A stretch of 64,000 bases of DNA, taken from NCBI GenBank assembly GCA_030272155.1, contig CP126199.1:2964501-3028500 (forward strand). Direction: 5' to 3'. Under the pieces are notes generated by a model. That model saw only the letters and a program-made list of their open reading frames with translations, made no database searches and was not told where the DNA came from. The position numbers were made by a program, and so were the translations under genes. The stretch is from Tetradesmus obliquus. Lineage: Eukaryota > Chlorophyta > Chlorophyceae > Sphaeropleales > Scenedesmaceae. Shown in pieces: positions 368 to 61,747 of the stretch; position 1 is the first letter of the stretch; each line of letters opens with the position of its first letter.

Positions 368-3300
368 ATGGCGGAAGCGGCAGCTGGGACTGCTCCCAGG
401 GATGTAGAGCTCAGCGATCAGGGCGGCGAGCAGCGCTACGACAAGATTGAGAGCAAGAAGGAGGAGAAGCCTGCTCTCCCGGACTTCTTCCCCTCTCATG
501 GACTGACTACAGCAGGTAATAAACAGATCAAGCAAGCGCAGACTGCCTCGGGTAGATCGGCAACCCTGGTTCCGTGCTCACCATGTTTTGATGCCCTTGC
601 GCTGCAGAGGCGGACGAGCTGCGTACAAAGTGGGGATTGAACGAGCTGGAGGAGAAGTCTACCGCGAAATGGGTGACCTACCTGCACATGGTGAGCACGC
701 GGCCGAGGTCGGGTTTGTCATCGGGGCCACCTCGCCAGTCACTCACTCCGTTCTGCGTGTTCTCTGCCCGCAGCTTGGCCTGTGGGGCTTCAACCCCATG
801 CCAGTGATTATTTGGGTGGCCATCATCATCGAGATCGGCCTGCAGAACTGGCCTGACGTGGGAGTGCTGGTTGCTATCCAGTTCATCAATGCCACTCTGG
901 GCTGGTAAGCAGCTCGAGCCAGCAATGCGCGTACTATAGCATTGCCATGAATCAAAATGCATAGTTCCAAGGCAGACAGTGCCCGCTGTAGGCCCAATTA
1001 CTCCATTGTAGTTTGGTGACCCTCCTACTGCTGTGATGAATCGCAATTGCTCTCTCTGTCTGTGCAGTAGGTGGTGTTGCTGCTTGAATGTGGCAGAGCG
1101 CTGTATGAGCTGTAGATTAATGCTCACTAACTATTTTGTATTGAGGACCGTGCTTCTTTGGGGGTTGTGGCATTTAAACTGGGGCGAACAGCCGGGTGCT
1201 CAACAACCTGCAGCTCAGCCCAGGACTGGTTGCAGACATGCGCAGGCAGCTGGGCATGCAGCGCCACTGCTGAGAGCAATTGTGTACCATGAATTCTCCT
1301 TGCATGCCATGTGCGTCGTGCTTTTGCACATCAAGCTGGTTCCACAGCATCAACAGCCGCTGACATGCTGCGCACCCTTCTGCTGTCAAATACCTACCAC
1401 ACGCAACACACTGCACTAGCGCTTCCTGGCCACTACCAATGCCCCATGGCTTGTGTTGCCTCGGCAGCTTGGGCTGCTCCCAGCCGCAAATCCCTCAACA
1501 CCTGACATGCCAGTTGCCCAGCTGCACCATGGCTCAACCCCTTGCTGCTGCTTCTGGTGCTGCTGCCTCTGCCTCGCAGGTATGAGACCATCAAGGCTGC
1601 TGATGCAGTGGCCGCCCTCAAGGCCTCCCTCAAACCCACCGCCACTGTCAAGCGCGACGGCTCCTGGCAGAACATGGATGCGAAGTTCCTGGTGCCTGGT
1701 GACATGGTGCTGCTGGGAGCTGGCTCTGCTGTGCCAGCCGACTGCCTCATCAATGACGGCCGCCTGGAGGTAGACCAGTCTGCTCTGACAGGAGAGTCGC
1801 TGCCAGTGACCATGTACCGCGGTGACAGCGCCAAGATGGGCTCCACTGCTGTGCGCGGAGAGGTGGAGGCCACCGTGGAGGTGAGCAGGCGGCGGTGGGC
1901 TGGGTTCCTGCAAGCTTCCTGCAAGTTGTTTGCAAGCTGGTGTGCCATTGCTCCCTGTATAGGAGTTTGTAGCAGCCACTGCCGTGCGTGGAGAGGTGGA
2001 CACACTGCGGGATATGCTGATGCACAGCGCTTTGAAGCAGTGGGCTTGATGACAGAGACAGCTGAATGACAAGCAGCAGCTGTGTGCAGCCACCTGCTGC
2101 TTTGCTGACCACTTGCGTTGCTGCTGCTGCTGCTGCCGCACTATTTATCTTGCCACCTCCATTGTACAATGTCTGCAGAGCACCGGCAGCAACACCTTCT
2201 TTGGCAAGACCGCCACCATGCTCCAGGCTGCGGGCGGCATCGGCCACCTGCAGAAGATCCTGATGAGCATCGTGATTGCCCTGGTGGCCATCTCCCTCAT
2301 CCTGTGCATCACCATGCTTGGCTACCTGCTGGGCTATGGCCGGGAGCCCTTCAAAGAGGCGCTGACCTTCGTGGTGGTGGTGCTGGTCGTGTCCATCCCC
2401 ATTGCCATTGAGATTGTGTGCACCACCACGCTGGCGCTGGGATCCCGCGAGCTGTCTGGCCACGGAGCCATTGTGACGCGCCTGGCTTCCATTGAGGAGA
2501 TGGCCGGCATGAACATGGTGAGCTGCGATTATGGCATGCATATGGTGAATACAGTGAAAAAGGCATGAACATGGTGAGCTGCGAATATGGCATGATTATG
2601 GTGAATACAGTGAATAAGGCATGAACATGGTGAGCTGCGAATATGGCATGAATATGGTGAATACAGTGAATAAGGCGTGGATTTGGTGAGCTGCGGGGCC
2701 TGGCGCGGCAGCCGGTGGACTGATAATGACATGAATTGTATCGTTGGCGAGGCACACATGCAGTGTTGCAGGTGCTGCACTGTGTGCTCGCGACAGAGGC
2801 GCAGTGCTACAGAAAGTATAGCATGCCTGTAGCCCATCAGCTGCTGCTGCATGAACCTGTTTCTCCCACTGCTGCTCCCTCCTCCTCCCTCTTTTCTTAC
2901 TCACCCCCGCCTGCCTGCCTTGCTCCTTCTGCAGCTCTGCTCTGACAAGACCGGCACGCTCACCCTGAATAAGATGGTCATCCAGGACGACTGCCCCATC
3001 TACACACCTGGCATCACCAAGGAGGATGTGCTGAAGAGCGCAGCGCTGGCAGCCAAGTGGAAGGAGCCCCCTAGGGATGCCCTGGACACGCTGGTGCTGC
3101 TCAACTCTGGCCTCGACCTCAAGGAGCTGGACCAGTTCGAGCAGGTGAGAAAACAGCAGGGGTTTTTAAGAGCGCTAGAGAACACAGCAGCCGTGTGGTT
3201 TGAGGCAGCTGCAGCAGCAGCAGGAGGTGCCTTTTTATTGTTAATGTGCGTAGCAGCAACAAGACTGCTGTTTGGTGGTTGATGCACGCCGTATATGTCA

Positions 3301-6300
3301 ACACTGTGCAAGCACCTGAGCAAGTGCAGCCTCTGGTTTAGGTTGATGTTTGCCGCGCAGCCGCTGCAAATATTATTTCCATACATGGTGGCTTGTTGTT
3401 CTCAACCTCTGCCATTGCTGCTGCTGCTGCCGCCAATGTGCCTGTTGCTCCGTGCCAGGTGGACTTCCTGCCTTTTGACCCCACCATCAAGCGCACTGAG
3501 GGCACCCTGAAGGGCCCCGATGGCCGCACCTTCAAGTGCACCAAGGGCGCCCCCCACATTATCCTGAAGCTGGTGGAGATTGACCAGGAGGAGGTGGCAA
3601 AGCGCGTCAACTGGAAGGTGTGTGCTGTTGTATATGCCATGTTGTTGCAATTGGCGCATGGTCTGTTGGGTGCACCAATAGATGTTGTTGTGGTACAGGG
3701 TTGTGTCAAACGTGCAGGTGCAGCGATGCTTGTGCCTGCAGCAGCAGGTGCAGCCAGCTCGCTGTGGCTGCTTGGTGTGGAGCTCCAGAATCCGGCTGTG
3801 CTGGACCCACCCTCACATGCAAGCTGCTGCTGCTGCTGCTGCAGGTGATGGACCTGGGCCGCCGCGGCATCCGCTCCCTGGCTGTGGCGCGCACCAACGA
3901 CGAGGGCAAGTGGCAGATGATGGGCATCTTGACCTTCCTGGACCCTCCCCGCAGCGACACCAAGATCACCATCGAGCGCGCGCTGGAGTATGGCGTGGAC
4001 GTGAAGATGATCACAGGTGCGTCATTCTTATTGAGCGTTGTGAAAAGCAGCAGCAGTGCGAGGCAGCAGCTGTGTGCTCTATGTTGGAGAGTATGGCGTG
4101 GATGTGAAGATGATCACAGGTGCGTTGTGCTTTGAGCAGCAGCAGCAGTGTGCGGCGGCAGCGTGGTCATTTGCCTGAAAGCTGAGTGTGGCGTAAAGAG
4201 GGTGATCGTGGTTGTGCAGCAGCACCAGTGTGAGGCAGCAGCGAGGCAGCAGCAGCTGTGCGCGGCAGCAGTGAACTCTGCGGTGCCGCAGCTGTGTGCG
4301 CCAGCAGCTGTCACATGTGTTGACACACCATATCACCACATCCCTGTGCTTGTGCAGGTGACCACGGCGTGATTGCCAAGGAGACTGCGCGCCAGCTGGG
4401 CCTGGGCACCAACATCCCCGACGCTGCCGGCCTGCCCACCCTGGCTGCTGACGGCTCCATCCCCAAGGACCTGGGCAAGAAGTACGGCAAGATGATCCTG
4501 GAGGCGGACGGCTTCGCACAGGTGGGTTTCAGACAGCTGCAGTGGCGTGTTGCTGTAGAATGGTCTGCATACAGTCAGGTACGGCTGTGGACGCAACGGC
4601 CGTCAGCATGTAGTCAGTATTTGCGGTGCCCCGGCGCATGAACTGTGCTTACCTTGGCCTTGCTCTGCTGCTGCTGCTGCTGCTGCCACTGCCCGCTCGG
4701 TGATTATTATTGCTGCAGGTGTACCCCGAGCACAAGTACCTGATTGTGGAGGCGCTGAGGCAGGAGGGCTTTGCAGTGGGCATGACCGGAGACGGCGTGA
4801 ACGACGCGCCCGCGCTCAAGCGCGCAGATGTGGGCATTGCCGTGTCTGGCGCCACTGATGCTGCCCGCGCTGCTGCAGACATGGTGCTGACTCTGGAGGG
4901 CCTGTCTGTGATTGTGGAGGCAATCCGCATCGCGCGCTGCATCTTCTGCCGCATGAAGAACTTCATCAACTACCGGTGAGGCGCTGGCGTGAAGTTCACG
5001 GCTGTGGAAAACGATAGCTTGCACGTTTGCAGGATACCTGATGCAACTTGCCAGCACAGCAGTGAATATCGTAGTCTGCTGTTGGCATCGTGTCTGTTGC
5101 AAGCAGCACCCCTGTGTGTGTTGCAGGTCCTGCCATCTAGTGTCTGACGCTGCTGCTGCTGGCCTGCTGCCTTTTCGTCTGTCTCCTCTCCTGCAGCATT
5201 GCCTGCACGCTGCAGCTGGTGGTGTTCTTCTTCATTGCCATCCTGTCGCTGCACCCCTCCACCTACGGCCACGAGGAGCACTTCTTCAAGATGCCCGTGC
5301 TGATGCTCATCCTCATCACCGTGCTGAATGACGGCACGCTGATCTCAGTGGCATACGACCACGTCATCCCCAGCCACCAGCCAGAGAAATGGAACCTCAA
5401 GGTGGGTACAGCGCTTGCAATGGCGTGCTGATTAGGTGCAGATTGTGTGTGGCGTTTGTCTCTTGTGGCGTACGACCACGTCATCCCCAGCCACCAGCCA
5501 GAGAAGTTGAACCTCAAGGTACGCTGCGCGGCACTATGATGAACGGTGTGCTGGTTACGTGTCGACTGTCGCTGCGGCAGCTTTTCTGTCAGCGTGGTGG
5601 CGCCTTGTGGTGTGTGAATGGGTGTGCAGCTGCACTGCGCGTGTACTTCGCATAGATGCTGTGACAGCACTGCGCTGGCTGTACCTTCAAACCCGCTGAT
5701 CTCACCCTCTGCTGATGTCGTGCTGCTGCCTCGCAGGTGCTGTGGGTGGTGTCCACCGTGCTGGCAGCCATTGCCTGCCTCTCCTCGCTGCTGCTGCTGT
5801 GGGGCGCCCTGGACGCCAGCAACCCCAAGGGCATGTTTGCGGCCTTTGGCCTGCCAGCCATCCCTTACCCGGAGATCATCACAATGATGTACCTGAAGGT
5901 GTCCATCAGCGATTTCCTGACGCTGTTCTGCGCACGCACACACCACGGCTTCTTCTGGAGTGACAGGCCCAGCCCCTTCCTGGCAGGTGCTGCCACTGTG
6001 TCCCTGGGTATCTCCACGCTGGTGGCTTGCGTGTGGGGCGACGGCCACATTGATGGGCTGCATGTGCGCGGCCTGACCAAGTCTTCTTACAAGCTGTGGC
6101 CTCTGTGGTGAGTGGCAGGCTGGCGGGTCGAGGTAGGGGGAAGGCACTGCATGAATTTGCTGTTACATACATGCATGACATTGTATGTGACGTGTGGGCA
6201 AGCACAGCCATGGTTGGTGCAGGTGCATGCTTTGCTGGCACCGTCAAACAAGGCAGATTATGTGGCTGTTTGTGTGCGCCCTAGGCCCCACTCATCAGGT

Positions 6301-10205: not shown

Positions 10206-13200
10206 ATGCTGAAAACGTGTGGCGTGCTTGCAAGGATCGTCAGTCGTAGCTTCCAGTACAAGCAGCAGCAAGAGTGTGCATTAGGCCTATTCTTAGGCTG
10301 CAGATCTTTCACAAACAGCAGTTCCATGGCTACCCCGGGCTCTGCCCCTCAGGAGTTCGACCTAGTGACCATTGGTGCAGGTGTGCTGCTGTCCTGCAGG
10401 CGAAGCTGTGACTACCACCTCATGCACAACACAGTGGGGTTGCATGTCCACAGTGCACATGCAGCTGGTGTCGTTCAGAAGCGTCACCTTTGCTTTTCTT
10501 TGTCTTACATGCGCTGGATCGCAGGCAGCGGAGGCGTGCGGGCCAGCAGGTTTGCTGCGCAGTACTACAATGCCAAGGTGGCATGCATCGAGCTGCCCTT
10601 TGGCTTTGTCAGCTCAGAGGATGTCGGAGGTATGTGCGAGATAGCAGTTTGAAAGCTGCAAAAGTGGTGCTTGCTACCTGGGCTTGCCTTGCCCTTCAAC
10701 TGCATGCAGTGGTCCTGAGTAGTACATGTACTGCATACAAGTGAACTTGCAGGCAACGTAGTGGCGCACTACAGCGCCTCTGTTGTCATTTGAATTGTGT
10801 TGAGGCACATGCGACATACACACACCTGCACAAGCAGGGAAACCAGCAATTCATTGATGCATCGGCGTTCATCGCCTGGCGCTAGTGCTGGCCACATCTG
10901 GCAGCAGTGCAGCAACGCCGTATCTGCCACTTCCGGATCCAGCGCTCACCCCGCAATTCCTGCTGTGCAACACAACCCGCTGCCCTGCTTTTGCCAAACA
11001 CTTGGCCTTGCTTCATAGGCGCTGGCGGCACGTGCGTCATCCGCGGCTGTGTGCCCAAGAAGCTGCTGGTGTACGGCGCTGCGTTCAACGAGGAGTTTGC
11101 GGACGCAAAGGGCTTCGGCTGGCAGGAGGTGCAGCCGCCACACGACTGGAAGAGTGAGTCAGAGATACAAGTATCATTGATAAAATCAAACGTCGACTTT
11201 GTGAACAAATTTGTAAGCCTAGTGGGCGCCACAGGTGTACGCAGTAGGTCTCTTCATGGAAGGCGGTTGCAGCAGCAGCAGCAGCAGCAGGTATCAGCTG
11301 CCGCCTCTCAGGAGGTGCAGCCGCCGCACCACTGGAAGAGTGAGAAGATTGAAGAATGACATACAAAGGCAGCAGCAGCAGCGGTACGTGTAGCGCTTGG
11401 CAGTCACGTACTGCCCAGCAGGCGCTACTCAGCAGCAGATGCAGCAGCAACACGACTGCCAGGACGCAGAAACGCAGCACAGCAAAGACCAGTTGAGCAG
11501 CAGTGAAGCAGCGGCGGCAGCAGCAGCGGCAGCAAGGGCAGCATGTCACCACAATCAAGTTGCCTGCCCAGCTGCAGGCATGGAACTCGCAGGCTTGCCG
11601 ACAATTCATTTGAGCTGAGTGAGCTGTATGCTTGCGCCGCTGCTGCTGCTGTTTGTGTATGTGTGTGCAGCGCTGATTGCCAACAAGGCCAAGGAGATCA
11701 GCCGGCTGAATAGCGTGTACGTCAACCTGCTGCGCAACGCTGGTGTGGCCTACTACGAGGGCAAGGGCAGCCTGCTGGACAAGAACACCGTACAGGTGGG
11801 GGCTGGTGTGGTGCCGATGGCTATGTGTCCCTATGGTGCTGGTGGGCTGGGTAAACCTGAGGGCAAGGGTAGCCTGCTGGACAAGAACCGTGTACGTTAG
11901 TGCTGCGGTGGTGCCGGTGGTTCTGTTGTTTGTTTTTAGTTTTTTTGGAGCTGATGGACTGGTCTGCTATGAGGGCAAGGGCAACCTGCTGGGCAGCAAC
12001 ACTGTGCAAGTGAGGCTTGTGGAATATGGCAGTTCTGTGGTTCCAGTGGTGGTGTGTTGGGTGCTGGGAGGGAATGAAAAGGCAAGTTGGGAAGGTGACA
12101 TCGCAGGGAGTGTGTGATTGTATACCTGTTGCCCACGCACAATTCAGCGACCAAACAGCAAAGTATAATACAGTGCCCACAAAGCAGTAGATTGCAGCGT
12201 GACGTAGCCTCCTATGAGGGCAAGGACAGCCTGCTGAACAGCAGCACCGTGCACGTTGGTGCCGGTTGCCGTGCGCGCAATGCCAGTACTTGTGTCCAGC
12301 GTCTGTAGCGGTCGGATTAAGGGACACATTGCCATTGGTGTATCAGCTTGCAGGCAGTGGCAATTTCTTGGAACCACATCGCCCGCTGTTGCTGGCTGCA
12401 CTGCAGGTGACGCGGCCTGATGGCAGCATGGAGGTGCTGCGGGCTAAGAACATCCTCATTGCCACTGGCGGCTATGCCACCAAGGTGGGAAGCGCAGATG
12501 GCTGATGGATCCTGCATGCAGGCTGGCTCAAGCTGTACAGCATGCATCTTGCCCGCCGTGGCTGCCGTCGCATGTACTTGCCCCAGCAACCCCCAGCCCC
12601 GTGTGCCCCTCTTGCATTTCCTATCATCGTTCCCAAAAATTTAGGACATATGGTCTAATGTGATGCGCCTCTTGTCACCTCTGTGTGGCTCTGTGCCCAT
12701 GCTGGCTGGTGCTGCGCCTGCAGCTGCTATTTGAGGGCTCCACCAACCCTAGGCTTCATGGGCTGACGTGATGCACCTCTGTGTGGCTCTGTGCACATTG
12801 CATGTGTCTGGCTGGTGCTGTGCCTGCAGCTGCCCATCGAGGGCGCTGAGCACGCCATCAGCAGCGATGAGGCGCTGCACCTGGAGGCACTGCCTGACAA
12901 GAGCGTGCTCATTGTGGGCTCGGGGTGAGGGGCGAGACACACTTTTAGACACGTAATTTCCTGTTGCGGCATATCTGATGACAGGACTATGGTTGCGACC
13001 GTACCAGCAAGAACGGCCATAAGCATGTGGTAGAGCAATCGCTTGTGGACAGACACCAATGTGTAGGTGCAAGGGTGTGTTGACAGTAGCAGCAGCAGCA
13101 GCAGAGGCACAAGCCGTCAAAGCTGCAGCAGCCTGCGGCTGCAACATCACCCAAGGCAGCAGGCAGCACTGCAGGAGGCGTGCAATGTTCACATTCCTGC

Positions 13201-16773: not shown

Positions 16774-19700
16774 ATGAACACGCTGCTGCTGCGGACGCTG
16801 GAGCTTAAGAAGTCTCCTAGTGTGCAGACTTTTGCACAATATAGGGAGTCGGAGTCGCAGAACTGCCGCCACACTTCAGTGACCAGCGAGGGTGAACTAC
16901 TTGAGCACCAGACCCTTGAGCTCAGGGTCCACCCCCCAAACGTAAGCATGCCCAGTACAGTTGTTGCTGGCAGGCTTTCTATCTGCATGTTATCTGCATG
17001 CAGTTGTGTGATTCAAACCAGCACAGCATGCCTGCTGTTGCTATGCCAGCGGCTGCGGATCTCAGCAGCAGCAGGAGCAGCAGCAGCACCTGGTCACTAG
17101 AGCTATCATCCAGTCTGGTGCATGGTCCTTTGCTCATGTCTGCGCTCTTCTTCCAGCTTCACACACCGGGGTTTGCCAGCACACAGCATCCTGCAAACAA
17201 AGCTCAGCCTCATCTGCTGTCTGTGCTTCTGCTGTTCACTGCGCCAGGTCACTGTTGACAATGAGTCATATGATGACCGCACTATCATTACAGTAGACAG
17301 CGCGAACAGGCCCGGCACCCTCGTTGAGGTGGTGCAGTGCCTGACAGAGTTGGGACTCAATGTGAAGCGTGCACGCATCAGCAGCGATGGTGGCTGGTTC
17401 GTGGATGAGTTCCATGTCACAGAGACAGCTGGGCCCATACAGCAGGTGAGCAGCAACACTGCTGTTGGTCAGATGCAGGACAGCGCAGCAGTTACAGCAC
17501 AACAGCTGTTGACCAGCAGCTCAAAGGTTATCCTGCAAGGAGAGCAAGCTGGTGAACAGCAGATGCTCTGCAGGCCAATGTAGCAGCTGTACGCATGGCG
17601 GGGGCCCTTGTTGGCTTCCTGCAAGCAACGCCACAGCGCCATCCTGCAAGCAGTGTCACAGCACTATCCTGCAAGCAGCGTTATCCTGCAAGCAGCACAC
17701 GATGTTGCTGGCCAGCACAAAGGCTGCCAGCTGCGCTCTGTGCACCCACACCATACAACCCAAGTGGAAGTCAAGTATAGTATCCTTGCATGCTTGCCCC
17801 CCATATCCTGCAAACACCCGCTGCCTGCTGTTTGCGTGCTGCCGTGCAGGGCCGCAAAGTCACCAGCGAGAGCAAGCTACGCGTGATTAAGGCAGTGCTC
17901 AATGTTGAGTACGAACCAGAATCTGAGCACGACAGCAGCCAGCACGGCCCCAACCCCACAGCACTAGCGCGGCAGACCTCTGACACCTTCGATGAGGTCT
18001 GGCAGCATTCAACAGTATTTGAGATGGCTGGCGTTGACCGCACCGGCCTGCTAGCTGATGTGCTGCAGCTGCTCACCATCAACGGCTGTGATGTGCGGTC
18101 AGCAGCAGTGTGGACGTACAGCGGGCGCGTTGCGTTTGTGGTGAGCGTGGTGGAGGGCTGCGGGCAACAGCCGGTGCGGGACGTGAGCAAGCTACACCGG
18201 CTGAAGCAGCTGCTGCACCAGATGATGGATGCCTGCGGGAACGGCATAGTCAATGCTCAGCCAGTGAAGGGGCTCATCCACTATGAGCGGCGGCTGCATC
18301 AGCTGATGCTCAAGGAGGAAGAGAAGGAGTGGATGCGTAACAAGGACGCCATCCTGCAAAGGGCGGGCATCTTCCCACCGGACAGCAGCTGCAGCTGCAG
18401 CTGCCACCAGCAGGGCAGCATGTTTGACGCTGCTGCTGCCGCGGCAGCCAACGGGCGGCTGCAAAATGGCGGCGGCATGTCAGGGCAGCAGCTGTACCCG
18501 CAGCTGGCCGGCAACGGCGGCGCGCAGCAGCCGTACAGCCAGCAGCTAGCAGCAGCCGGCGGGCGCTGCGGCGGCTGCAGCAGCTGCTGCTGTCAGGAGG
18601 AGCAGCAGGAGCTGCACATTGTGCGCAGCGACCCCCAAGCAGCATTGGCAGCAGCAGCAAGCTCGCAGGGCCCTGGCCAGCCGCACCATTCTCCCTCTTC
18701 TTCTATCAGCAGCTTGCCGCCAGATGCAGACCTAGGGCCTGAGCGGTTGCTGGTCTCGCCCAAGTTCAGCAGGCCGGATGTGACGATCCAGCACTATTCG
18801 CACCTCAACTACTGGCTGGTGACCATCAGGTGCGTCGACTGGACAATCTCGTTCTTAGCAGAGGCAGCACTTGGTGGGTACGAACCCTAGGCACAGCTCT
18901 GATCACACGGCACAGCCCTGCACCCACCCAACTATATATGGTAGTTGCAGGAGCAGCTGCCCTGATATATGCAGCTTCCGCATGGACACCACATGGACAT
19001 TGCATGCTGCGTGCCTCCCTCACCTGCACCTCTCGGCATCCCCTCCACCCCAGGTGCAAGGACCGCAACAAGCTGTTCTTTTGACACGCTGAGCGACCTG
19101 ATGTGCGGCGGCATGAACAAACACCGCTGACACTTCATGCTGCCACCTTCCCCTCATCTGTTGCGCCAGGTGCAAGGACCGCAACAAGCTGTTCTTCGAC
19201 ACAGTGTGCACGCTGAGCGACCTCAACTATGATGTGTACCACGGCGCGATCGACAGCGAGGGCGAGATGGCTACGCAGCTCTACTACATCCGGCCGCGCT
19301 TTGGCGACTTCTTCTGGGACAGCGTGAAGGCCACCAAGCTGAGGGTCATGCTGGAGGCAGCCATACAGCGCCGCTTCCCCAAGGGGCTCAAGGTGAGCGG
19401 AGTAGCTTTGGTAGCAACGAGGTGGGAGCAGTAATAACGCAATGCGTGTTGGCTGGCGAGCATGTGCTGGTTGAGACATGTGGGGACGTGCTGGGGATGC
19501 CTTCAACAGCAGGGATGGGCTTCAGCCCCATTATCACATCTCAAACTACAGTAACCTGCATATCGGCCAGTTGCAGCAGCCTCTCACTCGGCCCGTCGCG
19601 CCGCTTGATGTGTATGCTTGCCGGCTGCCTGGTTCTGCAGGTGCACGTGCGGCACATGCCCACCGCGCAAAACACGCACCTGGGCCAGAACTGGCTGGCT

Positions 19701-36623: not shown

Positions 36624-39600
36624 TGCTGCGTGGCGTGCTGGTGGTGAAGGCGTTGACGTGGTGGAAGGTGAACATGGGCGGCGCGTCCATGATGTAGGGC
36701 GCGGTGCCGGCTGCAATGGTTTCGGCAGCACACAGCGCAGGTATCTCTGAGCATACACACAATCGCAGAGGCGCGTGTGTGAAGATTGGGGCAACACACC
36801 TCTCATCATCAAGCAAAGCACTTTCTCGCCCGAAGCTGTTCCATTGCATGGTGCACACATGGCCAGCGCGCAAAGCTAGCAGCAACACGCACCTGCTGCC
36901 CCTATGGGGAGGGGCACCAGGTGTACCTTTGTGCGCTGTAAATGATACACAACATGCACTCCACAGTCCAGCAGCAGTATACATGCACAATCTGAAACTA
37001 CTAATCTGCTGCGCCCCGTGGCCGCGGCACCCGGTGCACCTTGGTAGGCTTTGAAGGGTCTTACACCAGGCACTCCGCAATTGCAGCCGGTAATACATAT
37101 GCAATCCACAACCACCAACCTGCTGCGCCCCATGTCCGCGGCACCAGGTGCACCTTGGAAGGCTTTGAATGGCCGTACACCAGGCACTCCGCAATCCTGC
37201 AGCTAGTGATACATAAACACACTCTATAATGCTCACCTGCTGCGCCCCTCGGCCGTGGCACCAGGTGCACCTTGGTAGGCTTTGAAGGGTCGTACACCAG
37301 GCACTCAGCAATTGAGCGCTAGTGACACAATTATAATTCAAACAACAATTGAACATTCCCACCTGCTGCACCCTTGGGCCGCGGCACCAGGTGCACCTTG
37401 GTAGGCTTTGAAGGGTCGTACACCAGGCACTCCGCAATCGAGCAGCGGCTGGTGAAGTACTGCGTGACAAACTTGGCCGCATCAAAGTTCACGGGGCCGG
37501 CCACCACCACGTAATAATCTGGGGTGACTGCGATGTCATGGATCATGGCAATGGACACGCCTGGCAGGCGGTATGACTGGGGCGGTACGGCAAGGCTGCC
37601 GTTCTCTGGGTGGAGGGAAAGAGGGCAGGGGTGGGCGGCGGATGGCGGCGGCAGCGTGCAGCAGCGCATACAGTTCAAAGAACAGATCCAGTTGCACTTG
37701 CAAGGCGTCTGTAACCAGACGAACAATGTACGAGCACACAAGACGCATGCATGTTGCACGGTGTGCACCCGCACTGGATAGCTGGTGGTGTTCAGAGTGC
37801 GTTCCCATCGCACCAGCACATCAGCACAGCAGCACAGCAGCACCCACCTGCAAACTCGTAGAACTTCAGCTCAGCATCACCCAGCCCTGTGTTGAAGCTG
37901 AAGCCCACCCAGGTGCGCCCTGCGGCAGCAGCAGCACTGCTGCTGCTGCTTCTGTTGCTGCTGCTGCTGTCACTGTGCCAGCCTTGCTGTTGCTGCTGCT
38001 GCTGCTGGCCTGGCATGACGCGGTAGTGTGCAGCCAGCACTGGTGTGGCCAGTTGGCCGCCAATGGTCGACTCCCCAATGGTGTCCAGCGTTGCTGCATC
38101 GAGCTCGTGAGGCAGGCCGCTCTGCAACAGTCAACACACACAGCCGGCCCGCACATTGCTGTGAGACAATCCAGAGCTGCGCAGCATGCTGCATGCAGGC
38201 GCCATCCTACCCTGCCGCTGAAATTCACAGCGCAGACGAGGTAGCGTGCATTTGCCCCGGCAGGGAATACGCATATCTATCGTGCAAGATCTGCCATACC
38301 TTGTGCCACACAATTAACACGGCAATGATGTGAAAGGTGCCCTCTGCTCAAGCAGCACCGGAGGCCTACAATACGTTATCACAGCTGCAGAACCAGCTCT
38401 GCCAACAGCAGCTGGGCCATTGCAGCCCACATGTGAGAAAGAAATTTGTACACACCTCAACCAGCTCCGGCTGTTTGTGATCTGCAGATGTGACTTTGAA
38501 CATTTTGTCGGATCGACATGGTTGACACACGAGGTAACCAACACATCAGGCCCACGCACCACACGCACCTCGTACAGGGCCAGCAGCCGCACCTCGTGCA
38601 GTCCCACGCAACACAGGGCGTGTTTTAAGCCAGTCAAACTCAACGTTGATCCACACTGACGTGCTGCACACAGTAGGCACCTCGTACAGCGCCAGCAGCC
38701 TGCCGCCCCAGCGCCACATTCTAGAATTGACGTGCACTCATGTCTAACAACTGAAAAATCCAACTAATATAACACAGGTTAAAGGCCGCACACCAAGCTC
38801 ACCTCGTACAGCGCCAGCAGCCGCCCGCCCCAGCGCAGCACGCCCGTGTTGGCCACGTTCTTCAGCGTGAAGTCAAAGGGGTTGAACAGCAGGCTGCCGT
38901 CAGCAGCGCCGCGCGTGAAGGCGGTGCGGTGCACGGGGCGACCCGCAGCCTGCGGCGAGCAGGGCGCAAGCAGTGAGCAGCAGCGTAAATTACATTCTGT
39001 GCACGCCATGCCATGGTAATAGTTGTCTGGCTGGCTGCCAGCTAGCACGGCTGCTGCCGTGTGCATAGTGCCCCGACCAGCAGCCTACATGTAGAATCGT
39101 CCTCAAAACAGCTGATGAGCACCCGCATTTGTCTGACCACACTGCAGTGCATTGCAGCCATTGCTGCAGCGCCGCACCTGCTCGTCCACGAAGCCCTTGG
39201 TGCGTACAAACTTGTTCTTGAACCACGCGCGGCCCTGGTCAAAGCTGAATGACAGCAGCATGCCGTCACCGTCAAAGGTGTGCCGCTTGTAGCGCTCGTT
39301 GGAAACCTGCGGCAGCCACCACCACCACCAGCAGCAGCAGGACGCATTATACGAGATCGGCAGGCACTTGCGTGTTTGTCATGTAAACTGCAGCGGGGCT
39401 GTGTGTACAGTCCTGCAAGCAACGACAGGCCTCAGCATGCAACTGGCACACCATGCCAGGCAGCACAGCCAGCAGTACAGCCAGCAGCAAGCACGGCGCC
39501 AGAATGCAGCCCAGCTGCAGCTAGCCCATTGCTGCTGAAGCATCGCAATCCAGTGGCCGCATGGCTGTTTGTGTTTGCTGTCATTAGCAGGTGCATCTGC

Positions 39601-51929: not shown

Positions 51930-54712
51930 ATGCATGCCACCAGCACTAGGGTTTCGCAGCGGGTGCTGCCCTGCTGCTTGCCTGAGAGGCTCAGGCATGC
52001 AGCTGCGAACAGCAGGAGGCGAAATGCGGGTCTGCCTGCTGCCACTGGGCCCGGTCCTGCCTCCAGTGGCACAGTGGAGTCTGTCATATCGATCCCGCTG
52101 TTCCCTCTGTCAAACGTGCTGCATCCAGCACAGGCAGGGAGCTTGTTGGGTGAGCTATTGTTGTCTTGTGTGTGCAATGCTGTTGCTGATGGTACAAGGG
52201 ACTTGGTCAGCAGTACAGGATCATGTGCAGACGTCTAGGAATGGCTTATAGCTGCATGGCACCTTCCAACACAGCAATTGCAGCGACTAAACAAACTGGA
52301 TATTGCCGCTCACTGCACGACAGATGGTAGCCACTGAGCTGACATGGAATGGCCAGCGGACATTGGGCAGAACCTCCCCTATGCACACGCGGCATACCAG
52401 CCAACCACATGTGCCCTTGCACACCGTACGACAGCTGTTCCTTGCTGCCGCATGTTCCCACCTCACCAAACACACCAATACACCCAGCAGCACATGTACC
52501 TCCCCTCACCACCACCCCTTCCGCACGCCTGCACGCCCTTTTCCACCCCGCCACTCTCTCCCCGCAGTATTTGAGCCTCGCTACCTGGCTCTGTTCAGGG
52601 ACCTGCAGGCAGCAGCGCCGCAGGGCAGCAGCGCCAGTGAGGCAAAGTTTGCATTCGGGCACATCCTGGCAGCTGGAGCCGCGCCGCCTGCATTGATGCA
52701 AGACAGCGTCGGCGGGCTGCCTGCCTGCGGCGTGTGCGCGACTGTGAAGGGCATCGAGGAGCTTGAGAACGGCCGGCTGCAGGTGGGTTGCTGGGGTTTC
52801 AAGCGGGGTTTTGAAGGGTAGGGTTTTGAAGGGCAGGGCACGGTTTGTGAGTTTGTAAGGGCATCGAAGAGCTTGAGAACCGCCGGCCGTAGGCGGAGTG
52901 AGGTGTATGGCTTGGGGTCAGGTAGGGTTGTCAGGGGTGGGGCACGATGTGCCACTGTGAGCGGCATCGAAGTAGGACAACGGCCGCCTGCAGGTGCGCT
53001 TGTAGATCAGCTGTGTATTTAATGGCTTGTCAGGGGCAGGGGCCTGGCTGAGCAGGGATGGAGTTCCTTGCTAGTGCTGCTGCCCGTCTGGGTGAGCCAG
53101 CCGACATGAGTGTGATGCACGCACCAAACAGGCAGGCCAAGCACCAGCGTCATTACAGCAGGGTCCACGCAAACAGCCGCGCCACCGCCGTATACATGAG
53201 CAACAAACGATTGTCCTACGTCTGTCATATACATGAGCAATTGTATCTGCTCCTCGTTGTGGCGCTTGCACTTGCAGGTCAGCTACCAAGGCTGGCGCAG
53301 GTTCAAGCTGCTGACAGTGGACCACGATTCTAAGCCCTACCCCATGGCAGCAGCCACATGGATGGATGATGACACAGCCTCTCTCAGCCAGGAGCAGCAG
53401 GCAGCAACATATGCATTGGAGCAGCAGGTGTACGGCCTGCTGCAGCAGGTTGCTAGTTATATGCGGCAGCTAGAGCAGGGCTCTGCTGCTGGGGCAGCAG
53501 TAGCGGCGCCAGCGTCTGGGCCTACCGGGTTGCACGGCAGCAGCAGCGGTAGTAAGGCGCAGCAGCGTCCGCTGTTGCCTGACAGCGTGCTGCTGTTTGC
53601 GCCGCCTCCTCCAAGCCGGCAGCAGTCTGTGGCTGATTACCTTGTCAAAGCAGGTAGGAGCTGAGGTGGTGTGCGGCGGGTGAGGGTGTACACGCATGTA
53701 CACGTGTGGGTGCCATTTGGCCTGACAGCGGGACACTGTGCGCAAATACAGGCAGCGAGCGCCCAAATCATAAACACGCAATGTCTGTCATCTGCGGTGC
53801 ATAACAGGTTGTAACACCAGTTGCCTGTCCATTGCCCGTTTGTTATTGCGCTGCTGCAGGTGGCAGCACTGGTGACAAGATCGCCACCTGGCAGCGCATG
53901 GGCAGCGTGTACGGCCAGACCTCCAGCAAAAAGAAGCCGCCACAGGACCCCTACCAGGTGGGGCGCCTGGGCACTGCTAGCATGCCTAGTAAGCCTTTCG
54001 TACCTCCGCTTCGGTCGAATGCTTCCATGTGCTCTGCAAGCTGAAAATTCTGCAAACTCCCTGCTAATTGCCTGCACTGTGATGCTCTCTGTGACAGCAT
54101 CAATTCACCTTTAGACGAGACAACTGCTGCAGGCGCAAGGTGCAAGAGTTGGTTGGAGGCAGTCAACAGCAGCTTGAGGGAGAGGCATTCTGATTCCGCA
54201 TGTGTGGCTGGTGCGCATGCAGCATGGGCAGCCGGTCAATGGTCAAACCAGGGCCGCCAGGATCACCTTAGAAGCAGGCTAGAGGTGATTAGGATGCCTG
54301 TGCACCTGTACCAGGCGTACTTTGGACATACAGCAAGGTTTAGCAACACAACACTTCCGCCTTCGGCCATCACCTGCTCTTACATAAGTGAATATACACA
54401 CCTGCTCATGCCACACATCCTGCCACTGCCTCTGCTGCTGTTGCACCGCTCACCAACAAAACAATTCTGTCTATGAACACCTTCTCGCACCGCTGCCAGG
54501 CCGCCCGTGACCAGCTGGGCAAGGAGCGCCGCCAGGAGCTGTTCAGCTTTGCTGCCGCGTCAGTGCTGGAGCTGGGCCTGCCTGAGCGGCTGGCGCTGCT
54601 GCACTGCACTGACACGGCGGCGCGGCTGCAGTACGTGGCTGCTGCTGTGCAGCCGTTTCTGGCTGACCTGGTGGCCCGGGTGAGCCTGCAGCAGGCCATG
54701 GTGAAGCAGTGA
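51930..54712 (+). CDS. LON substrate-binding (N-terminal) domain protein
   Basis: The LON N-terminal domain is a PUA-like fold that recognises substrates. It also occurs in stand-alone plant and bacterial proteins without the ATPase and protease parts, as here. Five exons (51930-52149, 52568-52782, 53278-53653, 53860-53957, 54500-54712) give 373 residues. Domain start is IPLFPLSNVLHP (about residue 55), followed by VFEPRYLALFRDL across the first intron, CATVKGIEELENGRLQ and VSYQGWRRFKLL. The C-terminal half is helical, with a Ser/Gly-rich linker and a final helix (ERRQELFSFAAASVLEL to SLQQAMVKQ). The first 40 residues are basic and Ser/Ala-rich, possibly an organelle transit peptide. No AAA or Ser-Lys protease motif follows. 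Confidence 0.82.
52856..53000 (+). repeat. Two echoes of LON-gene exon 2 end
   Basis: The exon-2 end encoding VKGIEELENGRLQ (boundary 52782) recurs with boundaries near 52892 and 52993, steps of 110 and 101 bp. The first copy reads tag|gcgg, so its donor is lost; the second keeps cag|gtgcgc. Confidence 0.85.
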
Positions 54713-54743
54713 GGCTGCAGACGGCTGCTGATTGAGTGGTTTT

Positions 54744-55384: not shown

Positions 55385-55510
55385 ACAGTTGCAATGGCAG
55401 GCGGCACGTAGTATACTACGTAGTGCACTACGTAGTGCTGGTCACAATCAGCAACTGTTGCCGCACATTGCAATGGCAGCCGGCACGTAGAGTGCTGGTC
55501 ACATTCAGCA
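55385..55510. repeat. Palindromes within a diverged direct repeat
   Basis: A 16-bp perfect palindrome, acgtagtgcactacgt, and a 12-bp one, gtagtatactac, adjoin each other. The surrounding unit (ttgcaatggcag..ggcacgtag..gctggtcac) recurs about 85 bp downstream. Confidence 0.7.
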
Positions 55511-55689
55511 GCATACATAGGTGCTCTGACACCGGCGCATGAGTACTGCATGAAGAGCAAGAATTCATGTGCAATTCACACAGATGCACGACTCAGTAGA
55601 GCAGCCAGTACGGTACTGGCTGCTCTAGCGACGGCTCTAGCCTCTGGTTGATGTGTCATTACTGTTACAAAAAAGTATGCAATCAAGAA

Positions 55690-55694
55690 TGTAA
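55690..55694 (+). terminator. Candidate poly(A) signal, LON-domain gene
   Basis: This is the first TGTAA after the stop, about 980 bp downstream. Confidence 0.3.
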
Positions 55695-56666
55695 ATGCAA
55701 GTTGAGTGAGTTATGTTGTGCTGTGTCGTGCGTGTTTGAGCTGCAACGTTGCTGCTGCCGCACAGCAACTGCTGCTGCTCCCTCCAAGCCTGCTGGTGCT
55801 GCTGCTGCTGCACAATGTGAACGCCTGTACATGCGATAAGTTGAACATGATTTTTACATCAGCTGCTGAGGCCTTCTGCCAGGCCCTGGATGGCCTGAGG
55901 GCAGGTGCTATCTCCTGCAAGGTCCTTCAGGGCAGGGGCATTTCGAGCAGTCATCTTACAGCATGTGCCGTTGGATGCAAAGCTCGCCAACAAAAAGGAG
56001 ATCGATCAGAGAGACTATCAATACAGTTGTATGTGTTCGGCGAATCGCCTCCCCTTGGGGTGTAACTAGCTGTTTGCACCACCAAAAGGTACCTTTGAAC
56101 GGGTATCCAGCCATACGCTGCATCGCTTCGTAATATATCTCCTATACAAGCATTTTGATGATATTGTTGCTGCTGTCGCAGCAGAAGATCAAGTGGCTGC
56201 TGCTGCCGCAGCAGCTCCTTTTTGTCACCGGCCAAATTGTTGGCTCGATGCAAGATCCGACAGTTCCACAGCATTTCTGCTGCAATTCACCTGCCTAATC
56301 GCGTCCTTGCTGACCTTGGCAGTGCCCCAATCGTTAGCGCATAAATCCGGATTTATGCAGAACTGGCTAAAGTCTCAACTTGCAATCATTGCATACATGG
56401 CGCCGGCAGCGCCAGAGGTGGTGACACACCATCGTATGCTGATGCCAAGCATCACCACAGCCACATCTCCTCAATCCTCTTGACAAAAACCACTCCTGAC
56501 CTTGCTGATGCAAAGCAGCTAATAACATCAACAGCGCAAAGCCATGTGACACACTGACCTGCGCTCCCCGCCGGGCCAACATGGCCGTGCTGCCATGCAT
56601 GGAGCAACCACAACAGCCGATTGATAGCTGCTGCGCCAAATAAAGAAAGTTGCCGAATTGCATTCA

Positions 56667-56671
56667 TTACA
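56667..56671 (-). terminator. Candidate poly(A) signal, DUF760 gene
   Basis: This is the first TTACA (minus-strand TGTAA) after the DUF760 stop, about 950 bp downstream. Confidence 0.3.
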
Positions 56672-57616
56672 AGCATAAGCATCATGCAACATAATGCGCA
56701 CTCGCCAAGCAGACATGCACTCAGTGCACCTGCAAGCATTATCGGTCACAACACCCGGCTCCGTCACACCAAGCATGTAATGATCAACCACAATTGCCAA
56801 CATCTCTATGTACAATTTGACGAGCCCCTCAGTTGAGGCAAGCCCACCAAGCCACTCCCCTCAGCGCCCTCCACTGCCGCTGCCAGGCACACAAAAAAAA
56901 CACCCAAATGCAGCAACACACGCTGCACTCCAGTATGCTGCAAGCTGCATGCAGGGCTACCGCAAAACAGCACTTGTAAAGAGCATAATAATGTACAAAG
57001 CATGCCAGTACAATCAAGCCTGCTGCAGCTGCAGCAACCAGCACGGCCAAGCACCGGCATGCGGAAAAGAGCACATACACAAAGAGCAGACAGCAGCTGC
57101 GCATGCAAGGAAGCCAGCATCGCTGCTGCCGCAGTACCACCACCACAAATCTAACGTTGCTCAACCGAAGGCAACCGCAGCGTTTTTCAAGTCGCATAGG
57201 TCAACCGCACAAGCAGCATGCACGCAGCCTACCTCCCCCTGTGATGAGTGCCCAGGCGCTGCAACAGCGCACAGCAAGCCGCAGCACGCTTTAGCAACAC
57301 GCAGCATGATGATGTAGCGAAGGTAGCAAGTATGATTATGTCACACGTAACAAAACTGGCGCACATCACCTGCATCAAAACTGGACGCGCCCGCCCACAT
57401 GCGGCCCCCTAATCAGCACCTGCAGGACAACTGCCCCAAAACGCGAACCCACAACATCGCTTGGAGCGGAAGTGTTGCTGCAAGCCCAATCAGGCCAGGG
57501 CAAACAGCACATACATCATTTAGCCTGACAGGCCACTTGAAGGCCAAGCACGCAGAGCAAAGCACACACCGCACTGCACACACAGCACAAAACACAGCAC
57601 CCCACACAGCGCATCA

Positions 57617-60600
57617 TCACCACGTCTCGTGGCTGTTGTCCTTGGTCCAACCAAAGCGGCTGCCCTGCGGCTTGCTGCTGCTGCTGTTGCTGCTGCTGCC
57701 CGCTGCCACGCTTGCTGCCATGTCCCAGCGCACCTCCAGCCCCCGCAGCGTGTAGCCCACCACCATCAGCCAGAACATGACCTTGGCCAGCTCCTGCAGC
57801 ACAGGCAGCAGCAGCGAGGCAGACGTAACACAATTGCTTGCAACAGGTTTGCAAGAGGAGAGCTGTAGCGTGTAGCCCACCACCATGAGCCAGGAAATGA
57901 CCTTGGCCAGCTCCTGCAGCACCATGCGGAGCAGCATAAGGCAGCAGAGTCAGTACTAACAGGTGCTGCAGTTGCTTGCAGAAGGTTTGCAGAAGGGGAG
58001 CTGCGGTGTGTAGCCCACCACCATCAGCCAGAACATGACCTTGGCCAGCTCCTGCAAGCGCAGCCAGCAGTACACATGGAGTCAGAGAAAGAGAGATGCA
58101 ACTGCTTGCTGGAGGTGAGTGCGGCCTGCAGAGTCACACACCAAACAACAAGCAGCACAGCAGATGCTTGATCAACCGGGGAACGCCACGATTGCAACAT
58201 TTTCATTCACACCAACAAGCACATAAGACCCCTGCTGACTACTGCAGCACCGCAGCCGCAGCAGCCGCAGCCGCACCTGCGCCGTGCAGTCGCTGCCCGC
58301 CCTGCTGAGGCTGTCCCTGTCGCCTGTGCCCATCAGCCTCGCCACAAAGCTGTCCATGGCAGCAGACACCTCAGGCCCCACGCTGCCTGTCAGCTCCGCA
58401 ATGCTGGCTGCATCCAGGCAGCGCAGGTAGTCTAGGAGCTCGTTTGCCGTCTCTTCCAGCAGCAGTAAGCCGCCTGCGGGGCCAGCCGGCCGGCCAGGAC
58501 CCTGCAGGAATGCGGCGAGGTGCACATGTCAGGGATAACTGTGCCGCGTGGCGCGTGAACAAGACAAGGTTGCAGGTGTGCTGCGCACTGCACTTTGGTT
58601 ACGGCCGGCAAGTTGCCTGCATGGAAAAGCGCTGGGCGAGTTTAAGTGACGGCGACCAGGCAGCGCAGGTAGTCCAGAAACTCGTCGGCCGCCTCTTCAG
58701 ACAGTAGCAAGCCACCTGCTGGCCCAGCCGGCCGGCCAGGGCCCTGCAAAGTACATATGTTACTACTGCGAGTGTGCAGCCATGCATGATACGTGCTGAA
58801 TCACCATAACTGCATGAGCGAGAAGGTGAGGGGTGCTGAACAACGGTCACTAATGCAGGTTGGTGGTTGTGCCACCAAGCAGCTGACACAGCCGCATGGT
58901 AGCAGCGGATCCCGCGCACCCTCAACTGCTGCGCCACACAGCTACCTATGCAGCTGCCATGACTGCTGGTAGCGTGGAAGCTGTTCCACCATTCCTCCAC
59001 CAAGTGTGGTGGAGGTTGAGGGAACAGCAGCACGCCGACAGCAGTCACCCGCATGCACAAGCAGCTGAGTGGGCGGCCACCACCACAACATGCTCTTGGC
59101 TGCAACCATTGTAATGAACGCTGACACATGCACCGAAGCACGTGTGAGGAGCTTACCGACACAGTTGTGGGTAAAGCGCATGTCATGGCCATGCTGCCGT
59201 ATGGCCATGACATGCGCTTACCCACAACTGTGTCGGTAAGCTCCTCACACGCCATTCGCTTGCAGCATCAGAACCGCACTGCTCACACCCACCACCATCA
59301 TAAACCCAAGACAAGACAACCTAAGCACCTCCACGCAATAGCCGTTTCAGCAAACCCAGCCAATCCGCACACGGAGTGGATGTCAGGCATACAGCGCTAG
59401 CAGAAAGAGGGCAATACATGTTGTAGTCTTTACAAGGATGCAGGTGAAACACAACAACGCAGCCCCTCGTGCAGTGTTTGATTCAGCTCACCTGCAGCGC
59501 ACTCTGCCCCGAGACCGGCACTGGCAGCTGCCGCCCCTCTGTCAGCATTGGCTGCTGCAGGGCACTAAACAGCTGCTGCTGCTGCTGCGCAGGCTGCAGT
59601 GGCTGCTGCTGCTGTTGCTGTGGCTGCTGCTCCAGCTGCTGCCGCAGCCGTGTGACCTCTCCTTCCAGCATCTCTATGTAGCTGACTGCATCTAGTGCCT
59701 CTACTCCGTTCTCCTTGTGCCACAGCAGCACATCGCCCTGCACAAAGACAACCAGCAGGACAGATGCAGCAGCAGCAGCAGTGTGTGTGAGTCAGCCCCA
59801 TACCGACATTGGCAATCAGCCAGGCAGCATGTACAGCGGGACGGAACGGCCAGAAGCTACCACTGCTGCATGGTCCGCTCTGCTGAGGGAACAGCAAAGT
59901 TCTGCTTGCCGTACGTGCAAGACATTTCAACCAGCCCGTCGCGCCGCAGCTAGTCACTACACCCAACCTGTGAGCCTCCCCAGCTGCGCATAACGACATA
60001 CAAAACAGACACAAGCTGCACACAAACATGTTGATGCTTTATCACTCCTGCTGCTGACTCTCCTGCAGCCCCCTGCTGCTGACTCTGCTGCAGCCATCTG
60101 GCACCAGCCGCACCTGCACGCGCGACTTCTGCACCCCAGGCGCATACAGCTCATCATCAAGCACGCTGCCTTGAGGAGGCGCTGACTGCGTGCGCTGCAA
60201 TGCTGCGCTGCTGCTGCTGCTGCTGCTGCTGCTGAAGGGGCCGCTTGTTGCTGCTTGTGCTGCTGGTACTGTGCTGCCCCCCATGGCAGCAGCGGGTGGC
60301 ATGCCGCCAAGTGCAGTGCGCAGCTCCAATCTGTGACAGCAGCGAGGCAACAACCGGCAAGATTCACGGTTTGGTTGAGAGGTCATGCCGGCCTACAACC
60401 GCACTCAAGAACTTGTGACGCTGCTTTAGAGCAACCGGACACGGCACAGAGGCATCACAAACAGCATTGCATGCTGTTGCTGCTGCTGCTGCTACTGCTG
60501 CTGTTGCTGCTGGGTGATCGGACATACAGTACAACCGCCTGCAGCTGTGGCATACATCCACCTCCTTGTACACGCCTGCTGCTGCTGCTGCTGCTGCTGC

Positions 60601-61747
60601 TGCCGCTGCTGCTGGCCGCACCTATACTGCGCGCTCCTGAACATGCACCCCGGCATGAGCACGCACGAACAGCACAACCCTCTGCAGCTAATGCTGTGGC
60701 GCGTGCATCTGTACTTGCATCCTTGCTGCTGCTGCTGCTGGGCGCACCTATACTGCGCGTTCCTGAACATGTATCCCGTCATGAGCACGCTGAGCATGAG
60801 CTGGCTCATGTTCTCGCCCACAGTGCTGATAGTCACGGTGAAGAACTGCGGCGGCAGCGTGCCCAGCTGCAGATGAAGAGGGAGACAACACGACAAGCAG
60901 CAGCAGCAGCAGCAGCAGCAGCGCGACTTACAATGTAGTGGTGTGGAACGGGAGGGATACAGCAGAGGCGGGCGTGGTGCAACCCAGAGGTAGGTACTGA
61001 CGTAAGCCTGGTGCTCAAAAGCTGGTGTCTTGCACGCCCTCGCTCATCACGCTGACTACATGCTAGCTGCCGCATCACCATCAACAGCAGCACAAGACTT
61101 AATGCAGTGAGATCCTGCAAGCAAAGCAGTGAGTCACTGCTGCGCATCTACCAACCGACAGAGCAGTGCACGTTCACACATCCACGCACCATGTTGGTGA
61201 TGGTGTTGCGCATTGCTGCAACAACAGCAGGCGGCCCTTGGTCCACAAACTGCTCAATCAAGGCAGGCTGTACGTCCTTGACATACTTAAGCAGTAACTT
61301 CTTCTTCTCAGCAACCTGCATGTGCCATGTGTCAAGAGGGGCAAGGTGAAGGCGGTGATGTGTGGCACTGTGTGCCAATAAGAAGCAAACAGCAACATGC
61401 AAGAGACGCGAGGCACAACAGGGATGCCAGTAAACAAGATAATCTTCAACAAGTTCATGCATGCACCGGGCATACGCGAGAAACTCTCGACACGGTTTGC
61501 AGGATAAGCCCACCTCCTTCACAGGCACGCCATCTGCCGCGTTGCTCGCTGCTTGAACTACCAGGCTCCGCTTCAACTGTTTGCACCCAAAGCGGGCTGC
61601 ACCTGTCCTGAGGTTTGCATCTTGAGAGGTGTGGTGAGCCTTGAGCGCGCCTGTGCGCCTGTCTTTCCCGCATCCAGCAAACGAAGTGCACCACTCTTGC
61701 GACTTCCAACAAGAGAACGAAACAGTGTATGCTGGGATGCAGAGCAT
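57617..61747 (-). CDS. DUF760 protein, probably plastid-targeted
   Basis: DUF760 proteins are conserved in plants, algae and cyanobacteria; their biochemical role is unknown. Seven minus-strand exons (61747-61514, 61315-61190, 60866-60748, 60330-60114, 59737-59492, 58501-58277, 57793-57617) give 447 residues. After a 78-residue, Cys/Arg/Ser-rich leader that could be a plastid transit peptide come two related halves. The first has LLLKYVKDVQPALIEQF and LGTLPPQFFTVTISTVGENMSQLMLSVLMTGYMFRNAQYR. The second has VLLWHKENGVEALDAVSYIEML, a Gln-rich stretch, ANELLDYLRCLDAASIAELTG and LAKVMFWLMVVGYTLRGLEVR. The two GY-(M/T)-(F/L)-R segments are the family hallmark. Introns carry boundary echoes and a long hairpin. 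Confidence 0.9.
57868..58058 (-). repeat. Two acceptor-side echoes before DUF760 exon 7
   Basis: The acceptor and first bases of the last exon (cag|gagctggccaaggtc, boundary 57793) recur upstream on the coding strand with boundaries at 57913 and 58051, steps of 120 and 138 bp. Both keep an ag acceptor and the coding frame for MVVGYTL. Confidence 0.92.
58659..58746 (-). repeat. Acceptor-side echo before DUF760 exon 6
   Basis: About 85 bp covering the acceptor and start of exon 6 (boundary 58501) are copied 242 bp upstream on the coding strand (boundary 58743). Many substitutions separate the copies, but the acceptor and most codons are recognisable. Confidence 0.88.
59141..59251. repeat. Near-perfect long inverted repeat (hairpin) in a DUF760 intron
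   Basis: The arms 59141-59192 and 59201-59251 are reverse complements apart from one extra base in the left arm. They are separated by the 8-base loop gctgccgt. The hairpin lies in the intron between DUF760 exons 5 and 6, clear of both splice sites. Confidence 0.95.
60617..60664 (-). repeat. Echo of DUF760 exon 3 end plus donor
   Basis: The exon-3 end encoding LMTGYMFRNAQYR (boundary 60748) recurs with its boundary at 60622, 126 bp into the intron. It keeps ag|gtgcgg. Confidence 0.88.

Follow-up and report, generated by a model that had tools for sequence, protein, structure and literature searches.

Exon-edge copies in introns of Tetradesmus obliquus and their possible origin from diverged alleles

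In a 64,000-nt stretch of the genome of Tetradesmus obliquus (C9:2,964,501-3,028,500 of a 104.66-Mb, 17-contig genome; hereafter the window), introns of several genes contain copies of the adjacent exon edge together with its splice site, each of which we call an echo. The question raised by this locus is where such copies come from. A preliminary description had taken them for plain tandem copies of a gene's own exon edge and intron edge. We found that the newest echoes differ from their exons mainly at third codon positions, that their intron sides are dissimilar, and that copies farther out are more decayed. Echoes are real, common and odder than first stated, and among the models considered, an allelic source for the copies is the best.

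Pooled statistics refer to 314 kb, consisting of the window (W) and 250 kb from C1, C2 and C5, which is a non-random sample of the genome; a further 30 kb of C11 was treated separately and left out of pooled counts. Genes were modelled with a self-trained hidden Markov model gene finder that permitted one end per repeat array as coding, a rule which may favour border overlap of repeat clusters, and models with a coding sequence (CDS) below 250 nt were excluded. A free-running gene finder mistook echoes for exons, which is a warning for annotation. At the protein level, 8 of the 18 window predictions were checked. Alignment of the predicted H+-ATPase with PDB 5ksd showed no duplicated segment at the echo-bearing exon joins, and all seven other predictions searched (one shortened) had Pfam matches, namely Pyr_redox, ACT, RPE65, DUF760 twice, LON substrate-binding and ankyrin. 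We dropped 11 of 136 echo alignments (introns below 120 bp) and, after the codon-position count over the remaining 125, left out the arrays C5 37890 D (a minisatellite) and C2 49759 D (a coding repeat). The C5 6921 D array, whose predicted donor is wrong (the true donor lies near L022:7010), was excluded from the comparison of single-echo intron sides onwards.

Self-alignment of the 314 kb gave 93 local repeat clusters (W 16, C1 40, C2 10, C5 27). With the eight clusters of best offset above 300 left out, 76 of 85 crossed an exon/intron border, where random placement would give 42.6, and clusters at least 90% identical over at least 50 bp overlapped a border in 17 of 21 cases (10.1 expected), indicating that units lie at exon borders beyond random placement, as had been proposed. 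Comparison of exon edges with their adjoining introns found a match at a score of at least 40 in 54 of 342 introns (W 11/78, C1 24/97, C2 2/122, C5 17/45). Four of these 54, two in C2 and two in C5, fall in short predicted introns (72-93 bp), which resemble coding repeats split in error. Among introns of at least 120 bp, 50 of 282 carried an echo (W 11/67, C1 24/79, C2 0/99, C5 15/37). As controls, mismatched exon-intron pairs gave no match among 1,710 at a score of at least 35, and exon edges compared with a different intron from their own gene matched in 1 of 336 cases at a score of at least 40. Self-alignment and exon-edge comparison together recovered 15 cases in the window, in seven genes if both DUF760 stretches are one gene, matching the earlier tally of about 15 introns in seven genes; the arrays at donors 2517, 11153 and 60719 and at acceptor 12830 were detected by self-alignment only. 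Introns with an echo had a median length of 522 bp compared with 229 bp for those without, in keeping with the earlier view that echoes lengthen introns.

Echoes were clustered by gene (P 2e-4, C2 included). The gene-rich region C2:1,000,001-1,100,000 (L012-L021) had no echo in 99 introns of at least 120 bp, compared with 50 of 183 elsewhere (P 3e-11 for C2 versus the remaining samples). The GC content of this C2 region, 0.58-0.65, is mostly higher than that of the other samples. In the 30 kb of C11 there were 22 clusters, and 8 of 25 introns, some of whose models are doubtful, yielded 18 echo alignments. The 15 window arrays are given below, with positions counted from the first letter of the window and distances in bp.

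1843..2000, plus strand: edge (1843-1867) of the H+-ATPase exon 1580-1880 and an echo at 1976-2000, distance 133.
2506..2695, plus strand: donor 2517, a 56-bp unit in 3.4 copies at 93% with about 12 bp of exon per unit; looks like an ordinary minisatellite across an exon border.
3986..4246, plus strand: donor 4016, exon edge 3986-4016, echo 4089-4119 followed by gtgcgt, distance 103; the join agrees with PDB 5ksd.
5348..5520, plus strand: donor 5401, exon edge 5348-5401, echo 5465-5518 followed by gtacgc, distance 117; this join also agrees with PDB 5ksd.
11123..11344, plus strand: donor 11153 of the Pyr_redox (glutathione-reductase-like) gene, echo 11309-11344, distance 186.
11745..12266, plus strand: donor 11795, three echoes at junction distances 102, 214 and 459, the far copies decayed.
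12676..12844, plus strand: acceptor 12830, echo at distance 98.
19050..19223, plus strand: acceptor 19170 of the ACT-domain gene, gapped echo at about 19054-19099, distance 116.
29390..29553, minus strand: donor 29506 of the ankyrin-repeat gene, exon edge 29506-29553, echo 29390-29437, distance 116.
36890..37446, minus strand: donor 37363 of the RPE65-type (carotenoid oxygenase-like) gene, exon edge 37363-37446, four echoes at 126, 243, 357 and 470, the outermost most decayed.
38557..38836, minus strand: donor 38803 of the RPE65-type gene, exon edge 38803-38836, echoes at 122 and 234.
52735..52996, plus strand: donor 52782 of the LON substrate-binding-domain gene, echoes at 110 and 211.
57747..58070, minus strand: acceptor 57793 of the DUF760 gene, exon edge 57747-57793, echoes 57867-57913 and 58008-58051, GCAG before both.
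58414..58748, minus strand: acceptor 58501 of the DUF760 gene, exon edge 58414-58501, echo 58656-58743, distance 242.
60598..60790, minus strand: donor 60719 of the second DUF760-encoding stretch, exon edge 60719-60790, echo 60598-60664, distance 126.

From unit to unit, the window distances were 103, 117, 116, 116, 122/112, 126/117/114/113, 110/101, 120/138, 126, 98, 102/112/245, 56, 133, 186 and 242 bp, within a few bases of those in the preliminary description. The clustering at 100-126 bp that it had reported proved looser outside the window: in a set of 59 arrays (33 on the donor side and 26 on the acceptor side, without the window's 56-bp array and coding minisatellites), 73 of 117 successive junction distances lay between 90 and 140 bp and none was below 80 bp. 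In this set, nearest-echo distances ranged from 87 to 298 bp, the exon part measured 24-102 bp (median 58) and the spacers 31-274 bp (median 81). The copies do carry a splice site, as claimed, the dinucleotide (AG, or GT/GC) being intact in 55 of 59 nearest echoes. Homology ended at the true junction in 102 of 125 echo alignments, partly by construction as only exon sequence was aligned, and 11 of the 59 nearest echoes were gapped.

The two halves of the unit behaved differently. Exon-side identity was mostly 0.83-1.0, while the intron sides of all 31 single-echo arrays were 0.42-0.78 identical; unrelated pairs, taken as the baseline, gave 53 +-7% with a maximum of 77%. Residual intron-side homology was weak, with a mean local score of 20.5 compared with 14.0 and 39% of 41 arrays exceeding the null 95th percentile. 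In six multi-copy arrays (C1 19250, 44851, 66158 and 67683; C5 2068 A and 45118 A) the inner units were 0.72-1.0 alike and the outermost copy's intron flank was dissimilar; C5 12204 is a counter-example, every flank being 0.72-0.89 alike. Intron sides of adjacent echo pairs were related in 15 cases and unrelated in 35, intermediate pairs excluded. Given that inner units are alike and the outermost flank is not, it seems that a primary event left a copy of the exon edge beside dissimilar intron sequence and that ordinary tandem amplification came second.

The differences between echo and exon bear a coding signature. A neutral copy should show differences over the three codon positions of about 1:1:2 at most, and we counted 110/120/390 across 125 echo alignments. 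For the nearest echoes of the 39 arrays with dissimilar intron sides the counts were 24/20/125 (P 1.7e-10 against third positions making up at most half), with a synonymous divergence (dS) of 0.264, a nonsynonymous divergence (dN) of 0.032 and a dN/dS of 0.122 (bootstrap 95% 0.076-0.188), and no stop was found in their 693 codons. By comparison, a simulated neutral copy beside a constrained exon gave a dN/dS of 0.52 (0.36-0.68 at a proportion of synonymous differences, pS, of 0.218) and 7.1 stops. The 31 single-echo arrays, a set overlapping the 39, gave a dN/dS of 0.146 and 1 stop in 518 codons, and the C11 sample agreed (28/20/73). Base composition and CpG effects were rejected as the cause of the excess at third positions, since transversions (11/11/57) and non-CpG differences (15/14/71) show the same pattern. 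The direction of third-position changes was symmetrical (47 with AT in the exon and GC in the echo, compared with 43 in reverse); this fits alleles and equally a non-decaying echo, and is not used as proof.

Farther out, the signature fades. The 58 second-or-further echoes had a dN/dS of 0.243, 5 stops in 1,120 codons and 12 gapped members, and mismatch at codon positions 1+2 rose from 3.2-3.3% in the nearest echoes to 5.4-7.7% in those beyond, in accordance with the earlier observation that copies nearest the exon are the most alike, as if added successively. Extrapolated to zero change at positions 1+2, third-position divergence had an intercept of 0.153 (0.126-0.179, 117 echoes). It was nearly uniform among arrays (chi2 51.6, 38 degrees of freedom, P 0.07), positions 1+2 being less even (chi2 59.1), and changes unique to the exon in multi-echo arrays numbered 4/3/30 by codon position. 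Judged by the positive intercept, the low dN/dS and the few stops, the newest copies seem to have differed from the exon from the outset, as two working alleles do, and to have decayed afterwards.

Could the copied sequence be found elsewhere in the genome? We searched seven echo-bearing stretches against the whole assembly, scoring at three of them the best 40 of 233, 61 and 164 candidates, and within that scope no outside match covered an echo of the arrays used. The outside matches were exons of paralogues (a C3 H+-ATPase and, at 72-87%, a gene on C12) or short stretches, many of them CAG/CTG-rich; at one locus, CAG-rich matches overlapped the excluded C5 6921 array. At C12:496401-498495, a paralogue of the gene at C1:1.0829 Mb, one query stretch matches several times consecutively, and this paralogue may hold a repeat array of its own. 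For these seven loci, and within the candidates scored, a paralogue elsewhere in the assembly was rejected as the source, leaving a diverged homologous copy that is absent from the assembly.

We consider that the primary echoes were probably copied, during repair, from a diverged functional homologue, with the second haplotype of a diploid, heterozygous or hybrid, as the probable source, and that unequal exchange multiplied some units; both the haplotype source and the repair route are what we infer. T. obliquus is reported to be a diploid that is extensively heterozygous, apart from a single chromosome that is homozygous throughout (PMC12636532, citing Biondi et al. 2024; PMC12899622). For a related Scenedesmus, a likely diploid state and a haploid size of about 103.4 Mb are given (PMC7955037). 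In the proposed mechanism, a break or heteroduplex would be repaired between two diverged gene versions on homologous chromosomes, whose exons pair and whose introns do not. A strand copied past the border could not anneal on the intron side, and the overhanging ends would be filled in and joined end to end. The product would begin with the local exon edge and the start of the local intron, followed by the other version's exon edge, splice site and intron. As the outer true splice site would still be usable, the insertion would be nearly neutral and tolerated, and the copy would decay afterwards. The resulting direct repeats of 25-100 bp would permit unequal exchange, by which the unit of spacer and edge could be multiplied in some introns.

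Splice sites need not be part of what is copied. At C5 42215 (L026:2136-2429), the final ~80 bp of the CDS, stop codon included, recur downstream in one clear and one more degraded copy; no splice site lies there, and the spacers are related by eye. Among 124 CDS ends examined, this was the one clear stop-codon array; one other was ambiguous (C1 73171, which may be a donor), and the remaining candidates were weak or were probably internal exons mistaken for starts. Because this array copies a stop-codon end, the copying process need not be splice-specific, and a CDS end could be captured by the route described above.

Several observations weigh against an origin from the other haplotype. The intron sides are far more diverged than a dS of 0.26 suggests if introns and silent sites evolve alike, an excess that calls for constrained codon usage or a large number of indels. 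Echo-echo pairs with unrelated spacers match exon-echo pairs in third-position difference (0.171 and 0.170), and changes unique to one echo are rich in third positions (51/49/94); two fixed haplotypes are therefore insufficient, and several source alleles or a long process would be needed. Pairs with related spacers retain a third-position excess (22/24/71), which we ascribe to old copies having become mixed. Amino-acid changes in the nearest echoes are barely milder than random by Blosum score (-0.29 compared with -0.59, 45 changes). In addition, the model does not account for the floor of about 87 bp on the nearest-echo distance, and either side of an array could be the foreign one.

Alternatively, the echoes could be ordinary duplications in a hyperdiverse outcrosser, in which later crossovers in the spacer put another allele on the exon side. 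Such a history yields the same allele-like differences and also accounts for more than two allelic states among echoes. It predicts, however, young unrecombined arrays with matching intron sides, and there were none among the 31 single-echo arrays; we regard it as unlikely.

Less probable still is that ordinary tandem duplications occurred at random along one chromosome and that those crossing a border survived splicing and stayed visible through exon constraint. Survival and detection would then favour border overlap, the stops and gaps of the second-or-further echoes would be the expected decay of distal copies, and the 56-bp array at 2506-2695 has this appearance. However, the dN/dS of 0.12 stands against the 0.52 expected, stops are missing from the 693 codons, and the third-position intercept is 0.15. 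Intron-side identity exceeded 0.78 in none of the 31 single echoes, despite the high identity of the exon sides, and as both halves of a unit should match when young, the simple tandem model was rejected for the primary copies. The view of the preliminary description that echoes are plain tandem copies of exon edge together with intron edge is not upheld, and its idea of a detection bias, on which this explanation draws, is disfavoured.

It is very improbable that the echoes function in place as alternative exon ends whose codons and splice sites are under selection. The coding signature, the retained splice sites and a slight excess of distances divisible by three (26/59) would suit this explanation, but an in-frame open read-through across the spacer exists in only 9 of 59 arrays, 11 of the 59 nearest echoes are gapped, and outer copies decay. 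A splice-like motif at the far end of the echo occurs at chance frequency, in 6 of 33 donor echoes (random 0.17) and 4 of 26 acceptor echoes (random 0.18). Duplication of alternative or mutually exclusive exons was rejected on the same far-end and reading-frame results. As most echoes are unreadable in place and their far ends show no splice motif above chance, we think that selection shaped the sequence before it was copied into the intron and not afterwards. Finally, an assembler placing fragments of two haplotypes in tandem would leave exon copies that differ like alleles beside dissimilar introns, and would leave none where a region is homozygous, but we give this hardly any credence since outer copies have stops, indels and more changes at positions 1+2 than expected of a working allele, a unit may recur up to five times in slightly different form, and the assembly consists of 17 long contigs.

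If copying from the other haplotype is correct, intron growth and the birth of decoy splice sites would depend on allelic divergence, past hybridity or loss of heterozygosity could be read from a single haploid assembly, and contrasts in echo density such as that between C2 and the other samples are expected to follow heterozygosity. A wider and more tentative possibility, towards which we do not quite lean, is that introns are an archive of foreign alleles. Each echo would then be the fossil of a failed inter-homologue repair at an exon/intron border, echo density would record past heterozygosity and be absent where a chromosome became homozygous early, and such events would be a main route of intron growth in this lineage.

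Three other repeats were noted beside the echo arrays. A tandem repeat at L026:8599-8929 (offsets 148, 222 and 296) is 100% identical and, unlike the echoes, lies where no gene is predicted. A 139-bp array at 91% (L010:6711-7428, C1 86711-87428) is outside predicted genes and is possibly an undetected upstream exon. In the long intron of the DUF760 gene, window positions 59134-59258 form an inverted repeat with arms of 41 nt at 93%, and 111 nt of it match their own reverse complement at 95%; a genome search gave no second match, and the element may be the precursor of a hairpin RNA or a palindrome that arose by chance.

How do the echoes compare with known systems? Among the papers listed in our searches, which mostly left subscription papers outside, none describes exon-edge copies in introns as judged by titles and the openings of abstracts. 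Algae that are allodiploid or heterozygous diploids and show mitotic recombination would supply the diverged copies and inter-homologue exchange that the model needs; they include Auxenochlorella UTEX 250-A (PMC12636532) and, reportedly, Tetradesmus obliquus UTEX 3031 (Biondi et al. 2024, as cited by other papers). The passages of PMC12636532 consulted mention no copying of exon edges into introns. When breaks with 3' overhangs are repaired, fill-in by Pol alpha-primase/CST followed by end joining gives small tandem duplications (PMC8355091), which are likewise short direct repeats made without a mobile element. Such duplications copy one molecule and should start identical, whereas the newest echoes already differ as alleles do and only their exon half is clearly alike.

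Mobile elements were also considered, and we compared the 59 spacers with one another: there were 24 matches in 6 pairs and none after masking of CTG/CAG triplets, by which an origin from introners was rejected. Introner elements are intron-resident repeats with splice signals in which one sequence occurs at many genes. Echoes share the residence in introns and the splice signals with them; each echo array has its own gene's sequence instead. Intron gain through tandem genomic duplication of an AGGT site was reportedly proposed by Rogers in 1989 and by Hellsten and colleagues in 2011. It was rejected as an explanation here, as the echo junctions lie inside longer introns in 67 alignment rows; the exception, with repeats reaching both intron ends, is the coding repeat at C5 20701-20886. 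In that process the new intron spans from copy to copy and involves both exon edges, whereas with echoes an existing intron gains one edge and extends beyond the array. The two are alike in that a duplicated splice signal is tolerated, since splicing removes one copy.

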